Virus record (IMG/VR): IMGVR_UViG_3300025093_000092
Span: 1-28,740 of that record
Strand: one strand, 5' to 3'
From: a virus
Length of the DNA stretch: 28,740 nt
The number at the start of each line of letters is the position of its first letter. Positions within the stretch are counted from its first letter, which is position 1. Made by a program: the position numbers and the translations under genes. Below are positions 20,574-27,618 of the stretch, piece by piece. The notes under the pieces were generated by a model, which worked only from the letters and a program-made list of their open reading frames with translations, had not been told where the DNA came from and made no database searches.

Positions 20574-20608
20574 TTGACATTAATTTGAATATTTTATAGG
20601 ATATCCTA
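20574..20608. promoter_or_regulatory. Promoter with perfect palindrome TAGGATATCCTA
   Basis: On plus, TTGACA (20574-20579) then 17 bp then TAGGAT as a weak -10. The -10 is the left half of a perfect 12-bp palindrome (20597-20608). On minus, TATAAA-like bases beside the same palindrome could serve the 20566 gene. A dimer bound here would block both directions, as in autoregulated RHH operators. Confidence 0.65.
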
Positions 20609-20633: not shown

Positions 20634-20807
20634 ATGACTGATTTTAGCAAATACAAAAACATCTCAATTAAAAAAGAGACGTATGCAAAAATTGATAAAA
20701 TTAGAAAAGTGTTAGTACCTGACGATCCCGATGTATCAAGGGCCCAGGTAGTAACTATTCTAGTAAACAAAGAAGCCAAACGTTTAAATGGCAAAATAAA
20801 AGACTAA
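20634..20807 (+). CDS. Ribbon-helix-helix-type small regulator
   Basis: 57 residues. The pattern suits the Arc/CopG ribbon-helix-helix fold: a short strand with alternating residues (KNISIKKETYAKIDKIRK, about 8-25) that would enter the DNA major groove as a two-stranded sheet, then helix A, a turn (PDDPDVSRAQ), and helix B (VVTILVNKEAKRL). Such proteins bind as dimers to palindromes, usually as repressors of their own promoter. A perfect palindrome lies 26 bases upstream in the -10 region, so autoregulation is likely. Fold assignment is by pattern only. Confidence 0.65.
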   Translation: MTDFSKYKNISIKKETYAKIDKIRKVLVPDDPDVSRAQVVTILVNKEAKRLNGKIKD

Positions 20808-20825
20808 CCAATACAGGAGGAAAGT

Positions 20826-21077
20826 ATGAAATATACATTAGTCAAAAGAGTAACGTTCTCATACAAGGGAGCGCAAGATGTAGTGAGCATAGTGAAAGAA
20901 GCTAACTCACTGGAAGATGCACTTAAATATAAAGTAGGTGCAGAGATGTTAGAAGAACCGGCAGACAATAAAAAGTTTCAAGTTCTTATTAACATTGATG
21001 ATGCATTTGATTACATCAAAGAGCCGGCAAAACCTTTGCTGCTTACAGATGAAGTTAAAGGTCAAAAGGCGTCGTAA
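20826..21077 (+). CDS. Hypothetical small protein
   Basis: 83 residues, with AGGAGG 6 bases before the ATG, one of the better ribosome sites here. The N-terminal half looks beta-strand then helix (YTLVKRVTFSY, then ANSLEDALKYKVGAEML). The second half has a strand pattern (KKFQVLINIDDAFDYI). Short two-layer proteins like this often bind partners, but no family is recognised. It is followed by a one-base-overlapping gene in the same operon. Confidence 0.65.
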   Translation: MKYTLVKRVTFSYKGAQDVVSIVKEANSLEDALKYKVGAEMLEEPADNKKFQVLINIDDAFDYIKEPAKPLLLTDEVKGQKAS

Positions 21078-21259
21078 TGCCGGAACTTAAAGAGGAACAT
21101 TTTGAGGTTATAGATCGTAACAAGTCTATGAATTTTGACAGACAAAATACTGCCAAACTTTTACAGGCTCGGGAAATCTATAACCAATCAAATGGTTTGC
21201 AAAACATATCGGAGCATGAACTCAAAAAGTTTAATGAGTTGATGAAATACCATAGATGA
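21077..21259 (+). CDS. Hypothetical 60-aa protein
   Basis: Helical, charged, with no Cys, membrane segment or named motif. It overlaps its neighbours by 1 and 4 bases (TAATG-type before, ATGATGA after), which supports real, coupled translation. Composition (Asn, Glu, Lys) is ordinary for this genome. Confidence 0.55.
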   Translation: MPELKEEHFEVIDRNKSMNFDRQNTAKLLQAREIYNQSNGLQNISEHELKKFNELMKYHR

Positions 21260-21474
21260 TGAGTGAAGCAGACATAATTGAATATAATAAACTAACAGAA
21301 CAGTTAGAGTTATTAAAAAAGAAAGGGGCTCCGGTTGATGACCGGGGCCCTGCAGATCTCACTAAACGAATAGAAATTCTTGAGTTTAGAAATGAGAAGT
21401 TACACCAATATAATGAAAAACTAATTGAAGAGATACGTTCTCTTCGATCTCAACTTTATGTGAAAGGAAACTAA
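21256..21474 (+). CDS. Small coiled-coil protein
   Basis: 72 residues in two coiled-coil segments (about 8-23 and 40-70) joined by a Gly/Asp/Arg linker. Starts at 21256 and 21259 are both possible (ATGATG). The linker is encoded by a GC-rich 10-bp hairpin (21326-21350). The stop overlaps the alpha-CTD gene start (TAATG), so the two are likely co-translated and might interact. No named family. Confidence 0.6.
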
Positions 21475-21896
21475 TGAATAGAGAACTATTAGAAAGACCA
21501 ATAAGTGATCTTGAATTAAGTGTAAGAGTACACTCTGCATTTTTAAAATATGAACCCCAAATGAAAACAATTGGAGACTTAATACAAAAAACTCCAGGTG
21601 AGTTACTACGAACACCTAACTTTGGTCGTAAATCTATGAATGAAGTAAAAGAAGTTTTAGCTAGTATGGGTTTAAATTTAGGAACGAGTGCTGAATCTAT
21701 ACCTCCAACGATGGATAAAGTAAGACAAGACTTTGTTTATAATATAATTGAACATGCATCGAGTGCAGCAAGTAAATCTTTAGAGGTTATTGTAGATAAA
21801 AAAGAATGGGCCTATCATGATATTGAAAAGTATTTCGAGTCTCATAGAAAAATAATGGATGCCTACAAAGAAGCATTGCAGAGGTTACATGATTAA
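21474..21896 (+). CDS. Stand-alone RNA polymerase alpha C-terminal domain homologue
   Basis: 140 residues. Residues 10-70 align closely with the alpha-CTD of bacterial RpoA (DLELSVR, then [36 protein letters not shown]). Aligned to E. coli positions known to touch UP-element DNA, R265, G296, K298, S299 and E302 are kept (here R18, G51, K53, S54, E57), while N268 and C269 are replaced by S21 and A22. No alpha N-terminal domain is present. Residues 71-140 are a separate helical domain of unknown kind. It could recruit or redirect host RNA polymerase, or bind DNA directly. It is coupled to the coiled-coil gene before it and overlaps the next gene by 8 bases. Confidence 0.85.
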
Positions 21897-22446
21897 AGGA
21901 GATAGCACAGACTACAATCTACTAGAAAAATGGACCAAGAATTTCGATTGTGATGGTTTTGCATCCGTTGAAATAGGGGTTCGTGAAGGTATGGGATCTA
22001 AAATAATTATGGATAATGTAATTAATAATTACATTCATATTGGTATAGATCCCTATGCCAATTTAGAATATCAACATTATGATGACACAGGTAAATATAC
22101 TTGTGATTATACAGATCAAATGCGTGATACAATGCTACATGATTTTAAACCTTATCGTAATCAAGGTAAGTTTACTTTGTATAATGATACTGATATTAAA
22201 TTTATGGCCGACAGGGCTCACCAGGATTCCAGGTTTGCGTTAGTACATTTTGATGGTCCACACATGACTCGAGATGTAATCACTGAAGCTATTTGGTTTG
22301 CTAATCGTGCAGCACCCAAGACTCGTTATATCTTTGACGATTATCCTAAATATAATATGCAGCTTATCAGAGATATGTTGAAGTATTATGATTTTGATAT
22401 TTTGGAACAAGGTAAAAATAAAATCTGTTTAGAAAAAAAGATTTAA
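21889..22446 (+). CDS. Class I SAM-dependent methyltransferase-like protein
   Basis: 185 residues from ATG 21889, chosen over 21859 because GAGG lies just upstream and the overlap with the alpha-CTD gene falls to 8 bases. Motif I is [13 protein letters not shown] (E28 to G36), followed by [11 protein letters not shown] with an acidic residue after the second strand, and [10 protein letters not shown] near residue 115. This is the pattern of Methyltransf_24-type enzymes. The substrate is unknown; a small molecule, DNA or protein is possible, and no DNA-methylase NPPY-type motif is seen. Confidence 0.75.
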
Positions 22447-26155: not shown

Positions 26156-26193
26156 TAAAGTCAACGGACAAAGTGTCGCGGCTCGAGAGGAGA

Positions 26194-26214
26194 GCTTGTG
26201 GGCGGGACCCGCCC
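26194..26214. repeat. GC-rich palindromic repeat, copy 1
   Basis: GCTTGTGGGCGGG then A then CCCGCCC. In this copy the central stem GGGCGGG-A-CCCGCCC is a perfect palindrome. It is preceded by GAGAGGAGA, similar to the flank of copies 3 and 5. From here to 26477 there is no convincing gene, but a series of hairpins and the parS-like site. Confidence 0.65.
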
Positions 26215-26227
26215 GGGGAGGAAAAAA

Positions 26228-26243
26228 TGTTTCACGTGAAACT
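26228..26243. promoter_or_regulatory. parS: parS-like ParB-binding site
   Basis: TGTTTCACGTGAAACT matches the widely conserved bacterial centromere site TGTTTCACGTGAAACA at 15 of 16 positions, with the full 14-bp palindrome GTTTCACGTGAAAC (26229-26242) intact. Host ParB, a CTP-dependent clamp, loads at such sites and ParA then segregates the DNA. No parA or parB is in the window, so host ParB would be the reader. An exact 14-bp match is expected about once per 268 million random positions. Confidence 0.75.
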
Positions 26244-26307
26244 TGAACCTTGACCTGTTGGCTTGTGGCCTGTGGCCTGTGGACGTCGCTTGCGGACTGT
26301 GATGCGT

Positions 26308-26328
26308 GCTTGTGGGCGGGACCCACCC
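26308..26328. repeat. GC-rich palindromic repeat, copy 2
   Basis: GCTTGTGGGCGGG then A then CCCACCC, followed by AA and seven T. The stem has one conserved C/A mismatch relative to copy 1. The T-run makes it terminator-like on the plus strand. Upstream CTGTGAT and downstream layout are shared with copy 4. Confidence 0.65.
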
Positions 26329-26347
26329 AATTTTTTTATTTCTGCTT

Positions 26348-26401
26348 GAGGGCTGGTGGAATACTACCAGCCCTCTTGCTATTCCTGCCCAGGAATTTTT
26401 T
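26348..26401 (+). terminator. Double hairpin with T-run (intrinsic terminator)
   Basis: GAGGGCTGGT (26348-26357) pairs perfectly with ACCAGCCCTC (26366-26375). A second stem ATTCCTG (26381-26387) with CAGGAAT (26390-26396) runs directly into six T, a good intrinsic terminator for plus-strand transcripts from the VRR-NUC operon. It lies about 245 bases after the stop, so a long untranslated tail containing the parS-like site would be made. Confidence 0.6.
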
Positions 26402-26477
26402 ACACTTGTTGACGTAGGCTTTAGATAGAAGCCTGTGATCGTAAACAAAATAATTAAATAGATTGTTATGCTTGGAT

Positions 26478-27092
26478 CTAATGCTGGCCATAACTAATGT
26501 TTTTAATTTTTGGGTTCCAGCATTTTCTACAGTCGAGACATTGCCCGCCCTGCTGCGGTGCTGGACACGTGGCCTTCTTTGTAACCACGGTTGAAGTATT
26601 GGGCCAGCTTTTAATTGGTCCCTGGTTCACCATTGGTGAAGACAATCTAATTGTTAAATTGTCAGGCTTATGTTTTAAATATTTTTTCACCCATGCCTCT
26701 TTGGTTGGCATCCAATGCATACGGGACGGCGTCAACCTACAAACGGCGAAAATTTTTTGGAGGTGTTCCAGGTCCTGGACGTCTCCTGAATCGTGCCATC
26801 TGAAGACATCCGGCTTTTTTGAATTGATCAATAGTGCCATGGCCTCGACCCATCGCGGGTGCTTAATAGCTGCCAGCCTTCTATACTGTGCATCTTGTAC
26901 AACTTTAAAAACATAACAACCTTTAAGCGCATAACAGTCGAAGCAAACGGTGCCCTTCTTATTTTGTAACTTGCCGCCGGTGTTGCATTCTTTGGCGGGT
27001 ATACCAATGGACCATCCGGGCATCTTGCCGGGCTTGCTCAAGCCTCCGACTAATAACCAGGCCTGGGCCGTGTTTAAATTTTTATCTTTCAT
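26478..27092 (-). CDS. GP88-like conserved phage protein
   Basis: 204 residues. It resembles the 'gene product 88' family first named in mycobacteriophages: C36, then C50-x2-C53 YALKGCY (C59), the signature FRWHDSGD (97-104), HWMPTKEAW near residue 126, and a C-terminal Cys group C176, C185, C188, C191. The Cys groups suggest metal or Fe-S binding. Function is unknown in the family. It stands alone on the minus strand between non-coding regions, flanked by the GC-rich repeats. The likely -10 lies 6 bases before its ATG, so the message should be leaderless. GC content exceeds that of neighbouring genes. Confidence 0.8.
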   Translation of the reverse strand: MKDKNLNTAQAWLLVGGLSKPGKMPGWSIGIPAKECNTGGKLQNKKGTVCFDCYALKGCYVFKVVQDAQYRRLAAIKHPRWVEAMALLINSKKPDVFRWHDSGDVQDLEHLQKIFAVCRLTPSRMHWMPTKEAWVKKYLKHKPDNLTIRLSSPMVNQGPIKSWPNTSTVVTKKATCPAPQQGGQCLDCRKCWNPKIKNISYGQH

Positions 27093-27098
27093 GAGTCT

Positions 27099-27126
27099 AA
27101 TATAGGTTATTGTAGGATATTGTCAA
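27099..27126 (-). promoter_or_regulatory. Promoter of the GP88-like gene with TAGGATATT motif
   Basis: Minus strand: TTGACA (27121-27126), a 16-bp spacer, TATATT (27099-27104), 6 bases, then ATG at 27092. The spacer contains the recurrent motif (TAGGATATT on plus, 27113-27121) and is almost the same as the spacer of the promoter at 27784. Confidence 0.7.
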
Positions 27127-27155
27127 CAGTTAAAATTTTTTATTTTTAGAGAAGA

Positions 27156-27176
27156 GCGTGTGGGCGGGACCCACCC
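27156..27176. repeat. GC-rich palindromic repeat, copy 3
   Basis: GCGTGTGGGCGGG then A then CCCACCC, preceded by TAGAGAAGA, a flank shared with copy 5. It lies 30 bases upstream of the GP88-like promoter. Confidence 0.65.
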
Positions 27177-27200
27177 CGTGACTTGTTGCCTGTGATTAGT

Positions 27201-27221
27201 GCTTGTGGGCGGGACCCACCC
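27201..27221. repeat. GC-rich palindromic repeat, copy 4
   Basis: Same 21-bp sequence as copy 2 and, like it, followed by a T-run (eight T from 27225) and preceded by CTGTGAT. Terminator-like on plus. Confidence 0.65.
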
Positions 27222-27233
27222 ATATTTTTTTTG

Positions 27234-27280
27234 CTTGTGGCCCATTTCTGAATATATCAGCCAGGGCCACAAGATATTTT
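27234..27280 (+). terminator. 10-bp stem terminator before the structured region
   Basis: CTTGTGGCCC (27234-27243) pairs exactly with GGGCCACAAG (27264-27273). The loop can form a small CTGA/TCAG stem. ATATTTTT follows. It isolates the next segment from upstream plus-strand transcription. Its position after copy 4 repeats the layout of copy 2 plus the hairpin at 26348. Confidence 0.6.
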
Positions 27281-27299: not shown

Positions 27300-27618
27300 G
27301 CCGTACACCCTCACAAATCGAACTCTTGATCAGTAGTCGGTGCCCTATCGCCGTTCGAGATATTTCAACGCGATGAAATACCAGCGATTCACTTCCCGCT
27401 ACTGATCCCAGGTCGGTGGAAAAAGACACTTGCGCGACCATGGTATAACAATCTCACCGACCTGGGATCAGCACCCAGGAAAGACGGCCAACGTAAAGTA
27501 GCGGTGTGATCCTGGATCTGATCTTTGAGGGTTTCCCAATTTTAAGTGTAGTACAACCCCACAATCGAACACTCGATCCAGGGTGATGATTTGGGTACCC
27601 CCTGGATCTATATTTTTT
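27300..27618 (+). ncRNA. Candidate structured non-coding RNA, 50% GC
   Basis: No open frame of 60 codons lies within this stretch. I counted 150 G/C in 27301-27600, against about one third in the genes. A 17-bp perfect inverted repeat pairs 27402-27418 with 27455-27471, nested in CCGCTAC/GTAGCGG (27396-27402, 27498-27504). An exclusive alternative pairs 27328-27336 with 27399-27407. The 3' end is a 9-bp stem (27575-27583, 27600-27608) and six T, like an intrinsic terminator; CTGGATC at 27512-27518 could capture its 5' arm as an anti-terminator. Two related units (27303-27336, 27551-27583) carry an AUCGA hairpin whose G-C in one copy is G-U in the other, favouring plus-strand RNA. No promoter is clear, and no known RNA family is recognised. 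Confidence 0.55.

Follow-up and report, generated by a model that had tools for sequence, protein, structure and literature searches.

A free-standing alpha-CTD gene in a pelagiphage gene cluster

The DNA analyzed here, a stretch of 28,740 bases referred to as the window, is an IMG/VR virus record from an uncultivated ocean phage. At 21474..21896 on the + strand it carries an open reading frame, running from ATG to TAA, for a 140-aa protein that combines a C-terminal domain of the RNA polymerase alpha subunit (alpha-CTD; residues 3–72, 21480..21689, +), recognized by profile match, alignment and predicted fold, with a predicted helical-hairpin tail (residues 80–139, 21711..21890, +), recognized by family alignment, AF2 model and purifying selection. 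An SD-like AAAGGAAAC precedes the frame, whose ATG overlaps the stop codon of the preceding gene.

The gene belongs to a co-oriented cluster encoding, in order, proteins of 57, 83 and 60 aa, a 72-aa coiled-coil protein, the alpha-CTD protein, a methyltransferase, an HNH protein and a PD-(D/E)XK nuclease; a DNA polymerase gene is also among its neighbors. The first three genes (20634..21259, +) are tightly packed, and the 57-aa gene, whose product matches no family, might specify a small regulator that binds DNA, though this is a guess. The alpha-CTD gene overlaps both of its neighbors. Its start shares bases with the stop codon of the predicted coiled-coil gene (21256..21474, +) at TAATG (CTAATG), and its stop shares bases with the start (CATGATTAA) of a putative methyltransferase gene (Methyltransf_24, PF13578, E 6e-7; 21889..22446, +) that is homologous to gp24 of HTVC027P. 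These overlaps suggest that the alpha-CTD protein may be co-translated with the coiled-coil protein and the methyltransferase.

Ahead of the cluster, a scan matched a sigma-70-like promoter, TTGACA-N17-TAGGAT, at 20574..20602 (+). Promoter-like sites found by this simple scan were no more frequent in the cluster region than in shuffles; the TTGACA and TAGGAT hexamers are kept before the cluster's first gene in most of the relatives compared, with or without an alpha-CTD gene, the exceptions being L139, where the spacer is shorter, and HTVC027P, which differs.

The window shares its gene order with Pelagibacter phage HTVC027P and phage 023Pt_psg01 over window positions ~10.7–27.1 kb, and its PolA is 66% (65.9%) identical to that of HTVC027P, 62% to that of 023Pt_psg01 and 52% to that of HTVC023P. 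PolA similarity of at least 45% is the criterion that has been used for HTVC023P-type grouping (PMC9599517). Because PolA similarity and gene order both match HTVC027P and HTVC023P, the window phage is, as judged from its sequence, an HTVC023P-type pelagiphage.

Identity and predicted fold of the domain

The Pfam profile RNA_pol_A_CTD (PF03118) matches residues 3–63 at 57.3 bits (E 1.3e-15), the curated cut-off being 23.8 bits. NCBIfam RpoA models match the 140-aa protein through their last ~75 positions only, with E values down to 1e-23, and the top PDB sequence match is the Caulobacter alpha-CTD 9zum (E 6.8e-19); no PHROGs family was matched. The phage domain is alike bacterial RpoA alpha-CTDs (3n97, 3n4m, 9zum) both in sequence (~39–54% identity) and in fold (Z 13–14, TM-score by target 0.83–0.94). 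The frame contains no alpha-NTD, and the adjoining upstream frame encodes the unrelated coiled-coil protein; lacking an alpha-NTD, the phage protein cannot be an assembled alpha subunit. It also bears a helical-hairpin tail of its own that is not seen on the bacterial subunit.

An AF2 model calculated from a 40-row alignment, in which included RpoA rows help the fold to emerge, has a mean pLDDT of 87.7 (~90 across residues 10–70). It places the alpha-CTD helices at 17–26, 33–37, 41–45 and 52–64 and the helices of the tail hairpin at 80–108 and 114–139, the relative placement of the two parts being uncertain (pTM 0.53). The alpha-CTD part matches solved alpha-CTDs with Z up to 13.9 (3n97_B, E. 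coli) and a TM-score by target of up to 0.94, and the model fits 8y5t_A2 to 0.7 A over 67 residues. Alpha-CTDs filled the list of structural matches to the whole-protein model, and the tail received no assignment to a solved structure. When only 12 phage rows were aligned, the model (mean pLDDT 79.5) lacked an alpha-CTD fold and was discarded; a structure search with it returned ferritin-like and other helical bundles only, none at E≤0.001. Because the phage rows by themselves yielded no alpha-CTD fold, identification rests mainly on the sequence match, and we regard it as practically certain that residues 3–72 are a true RNA polymerase alpha-CTD. The initial annotation, which had described a close match to the bacterial alpha-CTD at residues 10–70, a missing alpha-NTD and a new helical C-terminus, is borne out on each of these points, and the structure prediction that it had suggested for the C-terminus gave the hairpin at residues 80–139.

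That annotation had also named a generic helix-hairpin-helix domain as the finding that would undo its reading, and this is ruled against by the fold (Z 13.9) and by a Pfam search in which no helix-hairpin-helix family (e.g. HHH_5) matched the 140-aa protein at E≤1. The wider idea that the domain serves plain DNA binding in replication, recombination or packaging, and does not contact RNA polymerase, could draw on the nearby HNH, PD-(D/E)XK nuclease and DNA polymerase genes and on the DNA-binding helix-hairpin-helix motif that any alpha-CTD holds. However, the similarity is specific to the alpha-CTD, no generic family scores, and the sigma-facing residue E261 is kept in 9/9 family members, so that we consider this function distinctly unlikely.

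Surfaces of the alpha-CTD

Alignment with the E. coli protein equates E14 with E261, R18 with R265, N49 with N294, G51 with G296, K53 with K298, S54 with S299 and E57 with E302. E261, R265, N294, G296, K298, S299, E302 and R291 are identical in all nine tail-family members, and the sigma-contact surface is kept, with D12 at position 259 and E14 at 261. R265 is also the residue that the T4 modification of alpha concerns. The equivalents of R265, G296, K298, S299 and E302 had been recognized initially and are found as described, at R18, G51, K53, S54 and E57; what had been overlooked are N268S, C269A and a two-residue insertion that directly follows helix 1 in the window clade. Position 268, a DNA-contact residue in the E. 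coli alpha-CTD, is S21 in the window protein, Ser in the three members of the window clade and Asn in the other six. Position 269 is A22 in the window protein and Ala in 9/9 members. With Ser in place of N268 and Ala in place of C269, affinity for DNA could be reduced or changed. Positions 286, 287 and 317, which we take to face CRP-type activators in E. coli, and the end of helix 1 are altered across the nine members. Thus the phage domain keeps most of the DNA-facing and sigma-facing residues of the bacterial alpha-CTD, from which it differs by N268S, C269A, the insertion and a changed 287 determinant. Since E261, R265 and the others are kept while 286, 287 and 317 have changed, this pattern suggests that DNA and sigma contacts have been retained and contacts with host activators dropped, although the sigma- and DNA-facing residues also rank among the most conserved of alpha-CTDs generally.

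Phage control through alpha has precedents. T4 modifies host alpha (PMC2988021), Rac of phiKMV-like phages cleaves it (PMC7552054), and Mor of phage Mu acts likewise through alpha (partial UP element); all of these target the host alpha-CTD, by modification, cleavage or contact, and none is itself an alpha-CTD. Such attacks on alpha, together with the kept DNA-binding residues, would fit a free alpha-CTD that occupies UP elements or activators, starves host promoters and thereby shuts down host transcription. The drift at 286, 287 and 317 argues against a decoy for activators, the conserved and more constrained tail described below would be superfluous for a simple decoy, and the gene's neighbors in its mid-genome cluster encode nucleases and a methyltransferase rather than obvious host-shut-off functions. 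We therefore judge inhibition of this kind to be rather unlikely.

An accessory cassette among close relatives

An alpha-CTD gene occupies the same site in eight related loci (L001, L002, L003, L050, L091, L092, L093 and L095), and the site is empty in L135, L138 and L139 despite a nuclease that is 86–92% identical. In L135 and L139 the coiled-coil gene runs directly into the methyltransferase gene (AACTAATGATTAAAGG), as gp23 is followed directly by gp24 in HTVC027P. HTVC027P, HTVC023P and 023Pt_psg01, while syntenic with the window, contain no alpha-CTD match. The coiled-coil neighbor is present in relatives both with and without the alpha-CTD gene. In L051 the alpha-CTD gene is placed elsewhere, beside homologs of window genes near 25–27 kb; neither the L049 locus nor the L051 locus showed a coiled-coil homolog. 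These comparisons indicate that the alpha-CTD gene is an accessory cassette whose insertion falls precisely between two neighbors of a co-oriented cluster and which, since close relatives are without it, is dispensable for this phage type. L092 has a further small ORF between the alpha-CTD and methyltransferase genes; because this ORF occupies the same site, the site may be an insertion hot spot.

The helical tail and selection on the gene

The tail hairpin is conserved as a unit and is found in nine or more further IMG/VR loci. Across the 12 rows of the family alignment, of which two are tail only, the invariant columns (A98, I106, F121, H124 and L138) all lie in the tail. No tail without an alpha-CTD was found in the viral contigs searched; L020, considered as a tail-only case, cannot count, as its match begins inside the tail at the contig end.

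In nine pairs of copies that are 54–94% identical, dN/dS (NG86) was 0.08–0.38, the pairs being non-independent and dS exceeding 1 overall for the window versus L050 and versus L093. By part, values were 0.02–0.28 for the tail and 0.19–0.60 for the alpha-CTD, with the tail lower in every pair; by this measure, constraint on the tail equals or exceeds that on the alpha-CTD. The frame is intact in every complete copy. Because such ratios denote purifying selection, the protein is very probably functional, and the gene, on this evidence, is real and under selection. Patchy presence, with an empty site in HTVC027P as well as in L135, L138 and L139, might have pointed to a recently captured, non-functional passenger, but dN/dS well below 1 across copies this divergent, the conserved tail and position, and the intact frames largely refute that idea, to which we assign next to no weight.

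The constraint on the tail, which defines the family, raises another alternative, namely that the alpha-CTD is an anchor that brings the tail, or a partner bound to it, to RNA polymerase or A+T-rich DNA for some function besides activation, such as anti-termination, inhibition, or marking of the nucleoid or phage DNA. The hints of co-translation with the coiled-coil protein and methyltransferase would be in keeping with a partner. However, occurrence of the coiled-coil gene in phages lacking the alpha-CTD, and the failure to see a homolog of it in the L049 and L051 loci, mean that no partner is indicated, and we hold targeting of this sort to be unlikely.

Other detached alpha-CTDs and their origin

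Viral contigs contain alpha-CTDs in proteins of ~127–250 aa with other partner segments (L010, L011/L012/L014, L013, L015, L016/L017, L045, L046, L052–L056 and L058–L060). Among the records of these types, a terminase scores above cut-off in those of L017, L052, L053 and L054; the others are in many cases short fragments whose viral nature rests on IMG/VR. One viral record (G022, locus L055) holds two separate alpha-CTD genes, with frames of 147 aa and 254 aa. In a cultured phage, Ruegeria phage vB_RpoS-V16, gp23 (L134:2923-3789) has an N-terminal alpha-CTD (E 1.2e-10) that was missed by annotation, the protein being labeled HTH-domain/pyrophosphatase. A Novosphingobium chromosome encodes a 456-aa protein (L042:1800-3167) in which an N-terminal GcrA domain precedes an alpha-CTD, so that a cell-cycle regulator domain and an alpha-CTD are naturally fused. 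Because viral contigs vary the partner segments and the GcrA fusion adds a further one, the alpha-CTD seems to be a portable module in use. In Alphaproteobacteria, the alpha-CTD of P0001 was matched in 366 of 385 genomes, with a second match in only three; detached copies are therefore uncommon there at this sensitivity.

The initial annotation knew of no characterized phage example, and this stands, since we found no functional study of a phage alpha-CTD protein in the literature; annotated, uncharacterized examples do exist in public databases. The sole literature example found is an annotation, on ORF40 of Erythrobacter phage vB_EliS-L02 (PMC9127768). BFVD entries annotated as phage alpha-CTD proteins match the fold of the window model, among them A0A6J5QDR9, A0A6J5SA90 and others from uncultured Caudovirales phage and A0A2P1JY10 from Rhodococcus phage Finch, but they align mostly over the alpha-CTD only, at 18–35% identity. 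Some GenBank records filed as phage are of another kind. OR851339, CAKLQH020000003, MT836419 and MT839982 carry or strongly match bacterial rpoA, the last two also hold ribosomal-protein genes, and all four are probably bacterial contigs. The best five GenBank "phage" matches were annotated full rpoA genes or Salmonella/Acinetobacter contigs, and two unannotated fecal "phage" records had bacterial ribosomal-protein genes alongside rpoA; none of these counts here as a phage example.

As to origin, locus L010:4758-5240 joins the end of an alpha-NTD (RNA_pol_L, E 3e-4, below cut-off) to an alpha-CTD on one viral contig; this truncated alpha subunit looks like an intermediate of rpoA capture and would be evidence of descent from rpoA. 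Phylogeny against RpoA, which the initial annotation had put forward as a check on capture, was less decisive, for in an 82-column tree the phage rows scattered over several positions, and a domain of ~70 residues offers too few sites to single out the donor lineage. Capture of the alpha-CTD from rpoA in general is likely. L049 has its best identity, 59%, to the low-GC RpoA row L113, one of the rows (L108–L110, L113, L114) assigned to SAR11 by low GC only; this is a hint and no more.

A proposed adaptor for host RNA polymerase

We propose, tentatively but in preference to the alternatives weighed above, that the detached alpha-CTD acts in trans as a transcription adaptor for host RNA polymerase. 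Like its host counterpart, the alpha-CTD part would bind in the minor groove of A+T-rich DNA adjacent to the -35 region and contact sigma region 4. The hairpin tail would tether the protein to itself as a dimer, to another part of host RNA polymerase or to a phage protein, with the result that host RNA polymerase is kept on the promoters of the phage, in general or for a selected class. DNA binding, RNA polymerase contact, the role of the tail and activation are what we infer from the alpha-CTD sequence and fold, from DNA- and sigma-facing residues kept throughout the family, and from purifying selection. Such an adaptor would serve a phage in which no virus-encoded RNA polymerase was detected. 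No T7-type RNA polymerase (PF00940) was found in the window, its relatives or HTVC027P, although none of the control genomes gave that search a positive control; in agreement with it, RNAP has been listed as specific to HTVC022P, and unknown early genes of HTVC027P have been suggested to initiate phage transcription (PMC12753301). The conserved sigma-70-type site ahead of the cluster and the joining of alpha-CTDs to differing partners elsewhere, including GcrA, are likewise consistent with an adaptor. The substitutions at 268 in the window clade and at 269 throughout, the absence of the gene from close relatives, and the general conservation of the kept residues in this domain weigh against it.

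More broadly, and with still less confidence than the adaptor itself, we entertain the possibility that phages have repeatedly cut the alpha-CTD from host rpoA and joined it to new partners. The resulting adaptors would act in trans, binding promoter DNA and sigma so as to take over host RNA polymerase, and the hairpin-tail family of pelagiphages would be one class of them. If true, the alpha-CTD, usually viewed as a tethered part of RNA polymerase, would work as a separate protein. Pelagiphages infect the most abundant ocean bacteria (SAR11), and a detached alpha-CTD is a direct candidate for takeover of host transcription by HTVC027P-type phages.

Elsewhere in the window, the region 26191-27239 contains four intergenic copies of GTGGGCGGGACCC[AG]CCC, two of them with T runs close behind, and a perfect 17-nt inverted repeat is present at 27402-27471.
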